From Scatophagus argus (Eukaryota; Chordata; Actinopteri; Scatophagidae), in assembly GCF_020382885.2 (NCBI RefSeq), contig NC_058493.1, positions 22,875,499-22,939,498 on the forward strand: DNA of 64,000 nt, read 5' to 3'. Each line of letters begins with the position of its first letter. Position 1 is the first letter of the stretch. The notes beneath the pieces were generated by a model. That model saw only the letters and a list, made by a program, of their open reading frames with translations, was not told the DNA's origin and ran no database searches. The position numbers and the translations under genes were made by a program. This document shows, one piece after another, positions 15-44,600 of the stretch.

Positions 15-3000
15 AGATCAGGTGTACCTAGTCAGTCTGAGAGAATCCTACAGGAATGAGATCATTCCTTACCGGGTAAGATTCTTGCCACAAGCTGCTC
101 TCTCAATCCACAAACACTAAAAGGGCTCCATAGAAAATACAAAGCCATTCATCACGAACTGGACAGGCTGTAAAATGAGAGAGAGTGGAAAAGGGAGGAC
201 CTGTGTGTGCTTGTGCGCATGTGTCTAATGCTCCATGTTGCATTTTACAGAAGCTTACATGGCGATCGGGCCAAGCTGACAGAGAGATGTGTGCCGTCAA
301 GGGAAAACGTAGAGTATGTATTAAAAATCTCTCACCTTGCACCTTTTGTTCCAAACTCCACCGTATGAACAGGGAACAGGGAAGCTGGCTGCCTCTCAAA
401 ACGCTGTTCCATGTTGTGTGTTTGCTTTTAGGACGAGTGCCACAACTTCATTAAAGTGCTGGTTCCCAGAAACGATGACCTGGTGTTCATCTGTGGTACC
501 AACGGCTTCAACCCCATGTGCAGATACTACAGGGTCAGTATCCAGTGCCAGGACCTGCCGTGAATCAAATTTGCATGCTGAGACGTGCACAAAGACACAC
601 AGAGTCAAAATCTGAACTAGAATCTTTTAAATGTCTTCAAAGTAATTTGGGTAGCACACCATCCTTCTTTATTTTATTTTAAATAAATCTGACTAGAACT
701 GACTGATTCATGTGCACGCTAGTGTTCACGGTGTCCCTTGACGAAACTCGCTTAATGTGTGGGTGATTCTTATGTTCCCTTCAGCTGGATAACCTAGAGT
801 TTGATGGCGAGGAGATCAATGGACTGGCACGATGCCCATTTGACTCCAAGCAAACCAACGTTGCCCTATTTGCTGGTAAGGGTCAAACACACGCCCGCCC
901 ACATATTGTTAGTCCTGCTGAAGTACAACTGACGTGTTCCTACTTATGCACTCATTATCACCTCAGTGTCTTTGCCACAGTAAAACTGTGCCTGCAGCGA
1001 TAACAAGTCAGCCAATTAAGGCTCATAAACAAAGAGAAACAACAAAGCATTGAAGAGCAGTGTATCCTCGTTTTTTTGGTAACTGTACCCCTTCTTTTGT
1101 TTTTTTTTTAGAAGGGAAGCTGTATTCTGCAACTGTAGCTGACTTCCAGGCCAGTGATTCTGTCATCTATCGCAGTATGGGTGATGGATCAGCCTTGAGG
1201 ACCATCAAATATGACTCCAAATGGCTGAAAGGTACACGAGTGCCTCTTCATCACTCTCAATCTTTATTTCTCTCTCCCCTTGCTTTCCTGGAGATATACA
1301 GCACGTGTCTACCTGCCAGCTAGCTGAATGTCCATTTTGCCTTTGCATGGTGTCTGTATGTACGTGGATGTCAGAGCTGTTTTTGGAGTGATAGAGAGGC
1401 TCTCCTGCCTTGCAAAGCTCCATGGGGATACGGCCTGTTCTCTCCCAGGCAATCTAGGTCACCCCCAGTCGTATACAGCCTTGTACAAATCCCTGAAATA
1501 TTCAACATGCACAGTGGTGGTGACGGTGCAGAAATACACTTCAACTCTCTGCCTCTGTCTCTCCCTCAGAACCTCATTTCCTGCATGCAGCCGAGTATGG
1601 GAATTATGTGTACTTTTTCTACCGAGAGATTGCAGTGGAGCACAGCAATCTGGGCAAGGTAAGACAGCGCACCTGCCGTTTATAATACATTACATATTCC
1701 GCACAGCTACAGTATGCAGGTCTTTATCCAAAAAAAGGCTTACACCTCCCTCAGTGCCTGTATTTCTACCATAAATGGCCCCAGTGGTAATGGGGCCCAT
1801 TCAGGCGATGACAGTACATCGCATTAGAATACACAAGAAATTTCAGCAGCCAGTGTTTGCTGGGTATGTTGTACTCATGTAAAACCATTACACAGTGAGA
1901 GGATTTGTCTCTTCCAGAGATTGCATGCTCTGCGTCTGCCTCTCCCTATGACTCACACACACACACACACACGCACACACACACATGCAGAGGGCATTAG
2001 GATGTTCGATGTTTGAGGCCAACTTCAGCTTTGACCAAGCCTCATCTCATCCTGACTGATTTGGTCTGTCCGAGCCACAGGAAGCCAGCATCCTCCATCA
2101 GCCACCAGCCAATAAATATTTCAGCCCTACTAATGCTTGGGTGACACCTGGCCTCTGATGGAGGTTTGCACTGGTAAATTATTAAAACTCTCAAAGCCAA
2201 CTGCTTCAAACACTTCATTTATAGTCTACGCTTTGTAATATGTGCAATCATACACACATTCACATAGTGTTGCATTAGGACATTGGATGTCCAGTCAGGG
2301 TGAACAATCTCCACATACAAAGTTAAAGATGAGAGAGTGTTTGTTAAGTCATCTGTGGCGAGTTGCAACAGGATGGAAGGATGTATTATTCAGCATGTTG
2401 AAGTGTTTTTAGTTACGTTCACTCAGCTGCCTTCCTCTTGTCCCTGACTCTGTCCTCCGTTAAACCCGTTCCCTGCAGGTTGTCTATTCTCGTGTGGCCC
2501 GCATCTGTAAGAATGACGTCGGTGGGTCACAGAGGGTGCTGGAGAAGCACTGGACGTCTTTTGTGAAGGCAAGGCTGAACTGCTCCGTGCCAGGGGAGTC
2601 TTTTTTCTACTTTGATGTGCTCCAGTCCATCACTGACATCATCAACATCAACGGAGTTCCCTCGGTGGTGGGCGTGTTCACCACGCAGATGAACAGGTGA
2701 GCCGTGGCTGCTGTTGATTTGTAAATTAACCAATGCTGAGGACGGAAATAAGAAATTTAGAAGGCAAACGCTGACGTTGCATTGATGTTACTTCTTTCTC
2801 CACAGTATCCCAGGGTCTGCAGTGTGCGCCTTCTCCATGGCCGACATAGAGAAAGTATTCTGGGGCCGGTTCAAAGAGCAGAAGACTCCTGACTCTGTGT
2901 GGACTCCATTTCCAGAGGAGAAGCTGCCCAAACCCCGGTAAGGGTTTCAAAAAAGTCTTTTCTTTGAGCAAGTGGTGCTTGACTCAGCAGCTGTTTGCCA

Positions 3001-6000
3001 CCTGTCATTTTCCCTGCTTGCTAACCCTTCTTTGTCCAGGTTAAACCCAATGAAATGAAATCTTTTTCACCAGTAAGGGACCAAGTTATTAGCTTTGACC
3101 CAGCACACACATTAACCATCTGCTGATGATTAAATAATTAATTTGGCATAATTAGACACATTGCATATTTAACCTGTTTACGGTGGGCACGTATATTTGT
3201 AGCCCAGCCCTGCGTCCAAAGCACAGAGTCGGCAAAGCACCTCATTACCCCAGTAAATCATTGATGGAGGACAACCATGCATATGTATATTTTATGTTTC
3301 CAGCTGAGGCCTTTTTGTGATCCTAATAAGCACCTGCTCCTCACCCCCACCTTCTCATTGCACTTTTCATCCATTTCAGTACACGTCATTATTACTCCCT
3401 GGTGTGTGATTGTATGAACTGATCTTTGACCTTTTGCCCTCTCTGTGTGTGTGTGTTCACCCTCCTCTCTAGACCTGGGTGCTGCGCAGGTCATGGTCCA
3501 GCTGCGTCCTTTAAGAGCTCCATTGAGTTCCCGGATGATACCCTGCAGTTCATCAAGTCCCACCCCCTTATGGATACAGCTGTGCCTTCCATTGGGGATG
3601 AGCCTTGGTTCACCAAGACTCGTGTCAGGTAAATACATGCACATTAGGTATGGTATGGATAAGAGCAATACCTCGATTTTGGTTTTAACTACCTTAATTT
3701 TTAAACTCAATTAATTTTTAATTCAGTCTTACCACTAGCAGATCTCTAAGAACTTTGTCTAAAAATGATATCACTATGTGGCTTAAGAATAAGTAAACAG
3801 CCTGCCCTATTCAGTGCTACTGACACCTTCAGGTCAGCACTTAAAAGTACTGAGTTTCAAAACCCAGTTCACAGTTTTTCACACTTGGAGATATCAGTAT
3901 AGAGATGATTCTTATGCAGTAATGTAAATAAAAAGAGCTTGACCTTTAACAACTTCAAGCCGAAATGATTTATGCTTTCAAAATGTTCTCTCCTGTTTTG
4001 AATGGGATCACCCCTACTGTGAGTAACACATGCTTCTCTGCTGTGTGTGAAGGTACAGACTGACAGCTCTGGCTGTGGACAACGAAGCAGGACCTCACAA
4101 GAACTACACAGTGGTGTTCATCGGTGCCGAGTCAGGGGTTGTCCTCAAGGTTTTGGCAAAGACCACCACTGTGTCCCTGAATGACAGCCTGCTTCTGGAG
4201 GAGATAGATGTCTTCAACAAGGCAAAGTATGGTTACATGCACTTTTCACTCTCTCTCTGTCTGCTTCTGTTCTCTTTTTCTCTTCCCCTTCTGTCTTCTG
4301 GCCAAAGGGTCAGCAACTCTTAAAATGAAGCTTCCTGGCACAGAGGACAGTGTCTGTCTGTCTGCTTTCTGTGCCTAGGCAGTACATGTGTGATTTCATT
4401 TTTTTGCGCGCTTATTCGTGGTAGCGAACACGCACATCGCTGTGTGTCAGAGATTAAAATCCGATTAAATTGTGAGAAAAGGCTTTATGTGATCTCTCCA
4501 CCTAACAAGTGATTAAATCTACTGAGACTGAAACAGTAGACACTTATCTGATAAACCTCTGATCGGGTTTCTTACTTCCATTCCCAGGTGCCTGTCTAAC
4601 CGTGAGGACGACAAGCGTGTCCTCTCGCTGCACGTGGACAAAGACGCTCACAGCCTGTATGTCGCCTTTTCAAGCTGCGTCATCCGTATTCCCCTGAGTC
4701 GCTGTGAGAGGCATTCTTCCTGTCACAAGTAAGTGACTCCCTAACGCACATGTCGGAGGTTAAAATGTACTTTGTAAGGCCGGTCATAGGTTTGTAACTT
4801 TATTGTTTTGTTTTTCAGCAAATGTCATAAAAGGAATGATAATAACCTCGCCATATGTCTTGCGGTTAATGTTCAGTCAGTCACAAATGTTTATAGTGCA
4901 CCTCTTACAATGATTTAACCAGGTGGTCTAATGTTTTGTGTGGCAATCAGGTCCTGTATTGCATCAAGGGATCCTTACTGTGGCTGGAGGCCTCATGGAG
5001 CCTGTGAGAGGATACAGCCTGGTGTTCAGTGAGTTCAAACCTCAGCTCCAAGAGCAAATATTTTAATGAGTTAATGAGGTAACAAGATTTTCGTTCTTCT
5101 TACATGCTTCTTTTGCCTCTTTTCAGGAGTGAATATGAGCAGGACATTGAATTAGGAAACACTGCCCACCTTGGAGACTGTCATGGTATGAATCTCATCT
5201 CCATGCCATGCCATCTATCCAGAGACAAAAACAAACACACACACACACACTTGGATACACAAACATTGACACTATGCAACTGAAACACAAACTCATCTCC
5301 ACACACACACACACACACATGCCATGAGCCTGCACACTCACACCAATAACCACTCCAGTAACTTGTCCCTACATAAGTCTATGTTCAGTATTAACACACA
5401 CATCTGCCTACAGTACATGGCCACCAGAAACTTATGCTGCCTGTGAGGCACAGATATGGACATGTACAATTAAGGGTCATGTTCAGCTGGTGCAAATGGT
5501 AGAGGTATTAAGATACCAATTGCAGAAAATGTGCCTTTACTGACTTTACTTTAAAAGTTGCATCCCTTCATTTGTACCAACTAAACATGACCATGGCTGA
5601 ACCTCAGTATTGATCAGAACCAGAGGGCCTCTAGTGACTCCAGTGAGAGAAGGACACTACTGAGTGCTTTATATCTTAATTAAAAAAAAAGAAACAATTG
5701 ACTGCACTCTTAGTGTCTCTTAGGGATTTTAGTTTTTAGTTTCTCTTCTGAATTCCTTTATGCTGATTTCTTGTTCTTTTAATTCTTTTAGCGTTTTTGG
5801 GCACTACATCAGCGCCAGATTACAAATCATTTGGCGACCCTACCTCTGGTTAGTTTGATCTTTTACTCAAATGGTTTCTTTCCTTGAGTTCAGCATCTCC
5901 AACCTTGTCTTTCCACCACTTCCACCATTTATCCTTTCTTACCAAGCACCTCCTGAATGCTAATGTCACCTGCTTCATTCTCATCGTCACAAACAACTAC

Positions 6001-41442: not shown

Positions 41443-41638
41443 TGTTCAAATAAACTGCCTGACAAATTCAAAAGGGTTTACAAAACAAAGATAAAAGAGC
41501 TATGTAGTATATAAACAAAAAAAACTGAAACAGTGGACACATGGAGATATGACGTAATTGTGTTTTTAAAACAAAACAAAAGATCATTGGCAAGAGGGCT
41601 GAATGTGGAAGTGTGTTAGCATGACTTCTAGAAAAGCT

Positions 41639-44600
41639 CTAGGCGTTGCGATCAATACGGACGTCCACCTCTCGACCGTTGATCTTGGTTCCGTTCATCA
41701 TCCTGCAGGCCTTCTCAGCGCTCTCTGGAGAGTCAAATCGCACTGTTCCACAGCCCTTTGACTTTCCGTTCTCCATCTTGATCTCTGCAAACATCACCTG
41801 GCCTGCAGTAGAAAAGAAAGAGCAGTGAATGATTTCTAAAAACCAATCTCTATTTGGCTTTAATGTTCATTGACAGCTCGTGATGTAATGTCAGCAAGAC
41901 TTCGAGAGGTTTTTCTGTTAAACAACAAAGATATAATTCATTGTGAGTATCTCAAGGAAATTCAATCGAATGCAACTGGACTTAGTTATTTATCTTTGAA
42001 GACGTTTCACCTCTCATCCAAGAGGCTTCATCAGTTCATGCTCGCTTGACTAGGCTGGGACTAGTCCAACTAGGTGGTGTGGAGACCCAGGTATTTAACC
42101 TCTGTGGAGGCATTCACATGGCCAGTGGTGTCATAGGCTCGTTTGGTGCCCCATTGTGCCAAATGACAGTCGTTGGGGATGGTGAAGTTGGTTTCGACTT
42201 CGTTAATGCTCTATTGTGTTATAACGACAGTCGTTAGAGTCACATGGGGTCCTTTGTGAATGGCAGTTGTTCTTAGAAGCTAAGTTGTTGAATCTCCTGG
42301 GAAGAGATGAAAGGGCAGCATTGTAAATTGGAGATAGGTGGTGTCGCAGACCTCCTCCTCTGTTGAGAGATGGTTTTTCTAATTTCACATAGATGGCTTC
42401 TTTTACTCCTCTTTCAAACCATCCATCCTCTCTGTCCAAGATGTGAACATTGTTGTCCTCAAAGGAGTGAGCTTTCTCCTTCAGGTGTAGGTAGACGGTA
42501 GACTCATTGCATTGGACAGCGTACACCAGATTGCTTTTCTGAGTGTGTGGTTTTCTGTGTTTGGGATGTACTAGTCTCTGTCTGAGTGTGTTGCTGGGTT
42601 TGAAATACACAGGGATACGGTGCTTGCTGAAGATCCTCCTGAGTTTTTCCTGATACCCCAGATAGATATGGGATGACTATGTTATTTCTTTTGTCCTGTT
42701 TTTCCTCCTCAACCACCTTGGTGGTGTTCTTCCTGGAACCAGCTGCAGTTTTCACAAAGGTCCAACTGGGATAACCACACGTTTTGAGGCCTGAAGCCTC
42801 TTGGATGAGAGGTGAAACGTCTTCAAAGACAAATAACTAAGTCCAGTTGCATTCGATTGAATTTCCTTGAGATAACCATGACCTGGATGAATGAGAATAT
42901 TCACAGGCTTCATAGTGAGTAATTCTTACAAAGCAAAAGACTTACCACAGTGACTGAACTTTTCTTTCAGCTTCTGCCATGTGAGGTCATAGGACAGCTG
43001 CAACACAGAAATCAGAGGCTCAGTCAACAGAACATATCTGAGGCTACACAAAACCCCCACAAGATGCAGATCAAAAGATGAGTCCATCAATAAAGCATTC
43101 AGTATAAATTCGGCTAATTCAACTGAACGAAGAGAGTTAGAAGGGTGAGTGAGCGCGATCACCCACGATTTGTGAAACTGGATCATATTTTATGGAGAAA
43201 ATGTTTTCCGAGTTCCCTTTAGTTGGTGCTAAAGTGACCCTTAACCACTGCCAATTGTAGCTGCTGCTAGCTAGTTAGCTCAGTTAGCAGTGTAGCTCGC
43301 TGACTCTGCCCAGACCTGACTGGGACATGGGAAATGTTGGTGTGTAAGCAGCCTGACATCTGGCATTATGACAGAAGCAAAGGTGCTAAACATCCTCTTT
43401 AGCACCTTTGCTTCTGTCATGATGTCAGAAGCAAAGGTGCTTCTGTTGTTTGACGGCAGAAGCTAAGAAAGGAAAAAGACGGAGCAAGAGGCAAGTAAAT
43501 ATCAGGTTTGCTTATAGTCGTCAGCGAGAGCCTTGCAAAATAAAAGTCCACCACACAGCTGCCGAGATGGCCCTCTGGACTAATGTATTATGTCTTGCGT
43601 TGTTGCTCTTGCTTGATGTTTAGCTGTGTTCTTAAAGTTGTCAGCTTGCTAGTTTTTGATAATGTAATCGTAACAACTGCTTGGGTACAAACTAAAAAAA
43701 GAAAAACGTTCTGGCATAACATTGCTTTAACAGAACCCTTCTCACATAACCAGCCCACACTTACATTTCGCACAAAGATCTGACATCCTGCTTTGGACCC
43801 AGAGCCTCGCTCAGACATGCCTCCACCCATATGGCCATAACCCCCAAAGCCACGGTTCATGTCCATTCCCGACATGCCCATCCGGTCAAAGCCTGAGCCC
43901 ATTCGGTCCATCGACATATTGCCCAGTCCACCACCTGCAATTAATACACAAGCACACACACGCTAATAAAAGACAGCAATTTACATTAATGTACTGCATA
44001 TTCTAATAGGGCAAGACATAGAGGTTCAAGAACCATTTAATCCTGTAATATTAATGCAATGCAAGTTTGTTATTTCTTTCTTTTTAATTGCCAAGCAACT
44101 CCACAACATTAAGTGCAAAGCAGTAACTACTGGGTGACTGACTGGGCATCTTCATGGCATCACTGCTCGGAAACAGCTGTGCCAATAACAGTTCGGCATG
44201 ACAACAACAGCTGGAACATAAGACCCTTCTTCCGCATGCATGAAAGAAACACAAAGCACGACAAATCTGCAGCCAATGGGAGATGGCATAATTTTTATAA
44301 TTTCATTTGGACCATGATGACATAAATAAAGAACATAAAACTTATATACCAGCATCCATCCCACACTATTTCACTTTTACTTCTGCTGTATCTCATAATA
44401 TAAACTGTCAAGTCACAATGTGACACTCATAAGCATTTTAAAAAACAAAACAAAATATTTAACATAATTTAGTTAAAGAAGACAGTTGCAGAAGGCAATG
44501 AACAACTGCAACCAGTCTGGTGTGTGTAGAATTGTTTTCTACACACACCAGAACTAAGTTATTATGCTATAGCAGGCTGGTGTCATTTGCACATAATTTA

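Follow-up and report, generated by a model that had tools for sequence, protein, structure and literature searches.

A hammerhead-like motif at the pseudo-LTR/ORF start of a truncated Penelope-like element in an hnRNPM/MYEF2-like intron of Scatophagus argus

The 42-nt hammerhead-like motif studied here is likely the small type I hammerhead of a Penelope-like element (PLE), located at the junction of the pseudo-LTR (pLTR) and the start of the open reading frame, and in this copy a passenger that is probably inactive in the pre-mRNA. A hammerhead is ordinary for PLEs; the motif is another copy of a published kind and not a new intronic ribozyme. It was found in the window, that is, the whole stretch of 64,000 nucleotides that was analysed. 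Strand and position numbers refer to this stretch.

Results

The motif belongs to a Penelope-like element, probably an endonuclease-bearing one

The motif lies in the pLTR of a 5'-truncated insertion in which a pLTR, an inverted pLTR, a tail, and a short target-site duplication can be recognized (Table 1). The 157-aa piece encoded by 42203-42676 has no Pfam match of its own at an E-value of 0.001. It aligns with the C-terminal part of the protein of L040, another copy of the family, with 139/180 identities and 31 gaps. L040 has one 551-codon frame that contains an RVT_1 domain above the cut-off and a terminal GIY-YIG piece (E = 0.00061, 20.5 bits; cut-off 22.6 bits). The RVT_1 matches in the family copies L043 and L040 have E-values of 1.7e-11 and 1.4e-11, respectively. 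Together, RVT_1 in the family copies and the GIY-YIG piece of L040 suggest that the element is an endonuclease-bearing PLE, and the PLE context proposed in the initial annotation is thereby confirmed through the family copies.

L043 is a tandem, with two direct motifs 2,816 nt apart and the RT frame between them. Its RVT_1 domain is in a 770-codon frame and the endonuclease part in another, indicating a frameshift that disrupts the gene of this copy. In the window copy, the 5' part is missing, and one motif and an inverted partial arm take the place of the tandem.

Table 1 Features of the insertion, the motif, and the host intron
Feature	Positions	Strand	Remarks
5'-truncated Penelope-like insertion	41948-42907	-	ends: site A, 41948; site B, about 42907-42909
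Endonuclease (C-terminal) part, open piece	42203-42676	-	about 30 aa with the YIG motif missing
Inverted second tail copy	42792-42907	+	starts inside the motif (no CTGATGA box), reaches site B
Left target-site duplication, TTCATTGTGAG	41937-41947		by eye; 10/11 letters equal to the right copy
Right target-site duplication, TTCATAGTGAG	42909-42919		by eye
Hammerhead-like motif	41997-42038	-	predicted cut between 42001 and 42000
CTGATGA box	42028-42034	-	N7 is A in two diverged relatives
Extra A between box and stem II	42027	-	present in 3/3 families seen
Stem II and loop	42009-42026	-	G.U and 5 Watson-Crick pairs
GAA box, then self-complementary ACGT	42002-42008	-	stem III only between two motifs
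Host intron	41803-42945	-	GT 42945-42944, AG 41804-41803; splice sites by eye

Layout and folding of the motif

The minus strand from 42038 to 41997, TGAACTGATGAAGCCTCTTGGATGAGAGGTGAAACGTCTTCA, is composed of TGAA-CTGATGA-A-GCCTCTTGGATGAGAGGT-GAAACGTC-TTCA. The core boxes of a type I hammerhead (CUGANGA, GAA, and H17) follow one another in order, as the initial annotation had read them on this strand. N7 of CUGANGA is a free position. Stem I consists of four exact pairs in the window copy (TGAA/TTCA), also as described before, and the exact boxes together with stem I support a hammerhead-type core. The description of stem II as exactly paired has to be corrected. An extra A (42027) follows CTGATGA, and the closing pair is G.U (42026.42009), to which five Watson-Crick pairs are added. 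The junction of stem II with the core can alternatively be drawn with an A-U closing pair and a bulged G, at a cost of 4.6 kcal/mol in the monomer and 7.0 kcal/mol in the dimer. No closed stem III is present within one molecule, as the ACGT at 42005-42002 lacks a loop. This ACGT is self-complementary, which supports the earlier view that stem III is possible only between two motifs.

Several observations count against a hammerhead. Covariance-model support, which had been named as a check, is lacking: no match to any Rfam family attains the gathering score anywhere in the 64-kb window, and the lists up to E = 10 for 41500-43000 and 41985-42050, with three matches each, contain no hammerhead family. 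The extra A and the G.U closing pair count on the same side. So do the predicted folds, the energies of which ignore tertiary contacts and the element protein. The best monomer fold pairs the CUGAUGA box with CGUC (-12.3 kcal/mol, whereas the hammerhead lacking stem III has -8.7 kcal/mol), and the best dimer fold is an extended duplex (-28.7 kcal/mol vs -14.5 kcal/mol for the double hammerhead). A text search of the literature for the letters of the motif returned no match.

Conservation of the motif across family copies and relatives

Copies of the family are numerous, with 44 matches reported and 40 of 830 first-look candidates scored. The exact 42-nt motif is kept in 36/42 family arms, at the same place within the element, and truncation within the motif accounts for four of the remaining six. 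The arms were taken from five additional stretches and from 30 of the 40 places that were scored; pieces falling short of query position 115 (L015, L037) were not counted. The initial annotation had made its reading depend on conservation of the boxes among family copies, and they are conserved.

Two diverged relatives extend the comparison, L046 (5087-5128, in a fetched neighbourhood) and L068 (5812-5853, in a 50-kb sample). Their motifs are identical to that of the window family at 37/42 and 35/42 positions and to each other at 36/42. The aligned flanks of the three families are identical at 24/47, 15/35, and 24/41 positions downstream and at 17/29, 22/29, and 28/53 upstream. Between families, CUGANGA varies at N7 only, and GAA is retained. 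Stem I has 3 bp in both relatives, with A/A as the outer pair, and ACAT replaces ACGT in L046. Pair 16-25 is C-G, U.G, or U/C across the families. The covariation in stems I and II that had been looked for is not seen: there is no compensatory change among the three families (three sequences only), which also counts against the hammerhead reading. At L046:5087-5128 and L068:5812-5853 the box reads CTGAAGA, followed by the same extra A as in the window family.

Divergence between the window copy and L043 is distributed unevenly. With 12 gap columns left out, 24/435 aligned sites differ in reference positions 2902-3348, and only 1/123 in the last 123 nt and 0/42 in the motif. Constraint on this stretch in the active lineage would produce such low divergence, and so would a mosaic template.

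The motif may instead be kept as a plain stem-loop, or as a protein binding or start site beside the reverse-transcription start sites, with a hammerhead resemblance only. The most stable predicted fold, one long imperfect hairpin, fits this explanation, as do the extra A in the core and the lack of Rfam support, and in the window copy the strong conservation likewise continues to site A (see below). Against it, CUGANGA varies between families only at N7, and GAA is unchanged. Moreover, the homologous motif of an anole PLE (PAc) needs hammerhead core residues to cleave, mutants of C3 or G8 abolishing cleavage (PMC11167929). We therefore consider this explanation unlikely and retain the small type I hammerhead as the likely assignment of the motif.

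The motif in the host intron

The motif lies in sense orientation within an intron of an hnRNPM/MYEF2-like gene, of which the insertion takes up about 962 of 1143 nt (boundaries by eye). The downstream exon encodes an RRM piece that is closest to hnRNPM in the PDB. Of the earlier statement that the motif sits in the sense strand of the myef2 pre-mRNA, the orientation stands, and the gene is better described as hnRNPM/MYEF2-like. In the neighbouring intron, inverted and direct repeats of GACAGAAGCAAAGGTGCT are seen by eye at 43360-43450.

The initial annotation suggested that the motif could in principle cut this intron. The upstream inverted arm (42792-42874) matches 42030-41948 with 99% complementarity along 83 nt, and in the predicted minimum-energy fold of the 962-nt insertion RNA, 42030-41997 is within the inverted-arm duplex. 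Because this arm is transcribed first and is predicted to pair with 42030-41997, cutting of the host pre-mRNA is unlikely; by the fold model, the window motif is probably folded shut in the intron and leaves the host RNA uncut. Regulation of the host gene by an intronic ribozyme cutting its pre-mRNA would be in accordance with the sense orientation inside the intron, but is very improbable in view of the complementary arm, a single motif without its own stem III, and near-identical copies at many other genome places.

Occurrence of the layout by chance

Taken by themselves, the two main boxes do not significantly exceed chance in the window: CTGATGA followed by GAAA is found 4 times vs 1.69 expected, and 7/100 shuffles reach 4. 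The fuller pattern CTGANGA-N8..30-GAAACGTH, in which stem II is not required, has 4 occurrences across 200 simulated windows, none of which includes an exact 4-bp stem I. Although the two boxes are no rarer than chance, a chance match has a negligible probability, as the layout with ACGT and stem I appears in 0/200 simulated windows and as family conservation contradicts it, the motif holding the same element position in 36/42 arms and two diverged relatives keeping CUGANGA and GAA.

Insertions end at site A or site B

The outer ends of the family arms fall at two places. Site A is CTTGAGATA (window 41948), and site B is ATTCACAGG, 33-35 nt further. With one tandem copy as the yardstick and rows stopping short of site A dropped, 61/61 retained arm ends are at site A or site B, and none are between; one of the 61 (L043, C12:24247611) is an internal tandem junction rather than an insertion end. 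In all 23/23 outward-facing inverted-tail pairs, defined by the next opposite end within 6.5 kb, one end is A and the other is B. There is no A-A and no B-B pair, and 15 ends are unpaired. A further A/B pair is present in sampled DNA (L064 7571-8363). As a strict rule, the A/B pairing is not stated in the available parts of the PLE literature; the count turns a published description into a sharper rule that can be tested.

Exact words of 10-15 nt are shared by the two flanks in 17/23 pairs vs words of at least 8 nt in 0/506 mismatched flank combinations, the compared stretches including 5 and 9 nt of element sequence. For six pairs, including the one in the window, no exact flank word was recovered; the 11-nt duplication of the window pair, read by eye, has one mismatch.

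By eye, the letters after CACAGG at site B are often those of the element's continuation (CT, CTT, CTTAT), which is not evident at site A. The flank agreement at site B looks as if the target strand were primed by short homology.

Regarding location, 18/36 insertions are within 1 Mb of contig ends, which make up 7.8% of the length of those contigs (p ~3e-11); the 36 insertions were merged from the first 40 places, with 40/830 candidates scored, and the sample may be skewed.

The predicted hammerhead cut is 53 nt upstream of site A. In 60 of the 61 arms, copying has run upstream past the cut; one arm begins 35 nt downstream of it, and no retained arm starts exactly at the cut, which counts against the hammerhead reading as well. 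Because the query holds the whole motif, only the partner arms of pairs test this question without bias; with such a query and 40/830 candidates scored, the set would not include a lone arm that begins at the cut. Templates cut by the hammerhead would leave arms at the cut (run-off at +1). This possibility was considered and rejected, as the nearest inner ends are at +35, -3, -3, -10, -15, -29, and -31. The two arms with the inner end at -3 begin with CGTC, the four letters immediately preceding the cut. A 30-nt inner piece at +4 in L015/L060 stops short of site A and was filtered out.

One tentative reading, which we regard as possible rather than probable, is that inverted-tail insertions result from two coupled but unequal reverse-transcription starts, with one target strand priming at B (perhaps by short homology to CUUAU) and the other at A, never both at the same site. 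If so, the complex of element protein and RNA would be an asymmetric pair acting on two strands, and any action of the ribozyme would be on other RNAs or would follow copying. The footprints, in the A/B end rule and the lack of run-off at the predicted cut, are a genomic test of PLE insertion. They bear on the role of the PLE hammerhead and on how PLEs start reverse transcription.

Discussion

A possible scheme of action follows published PLE hammerheads. The motif would sit where the pLTR meets the beginning of the ORF, and RNA of a tandem element would carry it twice, as suggested by the two direct DNA copies in L043. Two motifs, or two RNAs, may then pair their ACGU into one stem III and cut each other, possibly only with the element protein bound, as published for the anole relative. 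The window motif, being single and mostly matched by the upstream inverted arm, is a passenger in a truncated insertion.

PLEs carry minimal type I hammerheads that lack helix III and may cleave as dimers (PMC7761336, PMC6155905), and minimal dimeric PLE hammerheads have been described (PMC7761336, PMC6155905, PMC7229834), with Cervera and de la Pena 2014 and Lunse, Weinberg and Breaker 2017 cited there as the primary descriptions. The minimal dimeric ribozyme of the initial annotation, with a stem III possible between two motifs, is not new, having been described for PLEs (PMC7761336, PMC6155905). The motif shares with the published minimal type I hammerheads the host element, the place in the pLTR, the absence of a helix III of its own, and the tandem occurrence in one family copy (L043). 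The extra A beside the core and the G.U closing of stem II are possible points of difference.

The Poseidon PLE of Anolis carolinensis (PAc) likewise has its hammerhead at the pLTR/ORF start and two downstream reverse-transcription start sites with the tail between them; the tail is defined as the stretch between these two start sites (PMC11167929). Cleavage in PAc occurs only with protein added, ribozyme mutations leave insertion in vitro intact, and the cut does not coincide with the start or end of any RNA-seq read (PMC11167929). The same source reports no difference in start site between the top and bottom strands. The PAc ORF opens at stem II, with the cut 26 bp inside it (PMC11167929). 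Here, by contrast, the ATG of the motif is followed after five codons by a TGA, translation probably starts at the ATG lying between sites A and B, and the copy in the window is a truncated one.

Penelope elements of Adineta vaga also have inverted pLTRs, short target-site duplications, and a 31-bp tail on one inverted pLTR (PMC3846280). Compared with that description, the one-tail pattern is counted here, in 23/23 pairs. The satellite hammerheads of newts and salamanders resemble the motif in their weak helix III and dimeric action, but they reside in short repeats (satellites, retrozymes) and not in an RT element (PMC7229834, PMC6155905).
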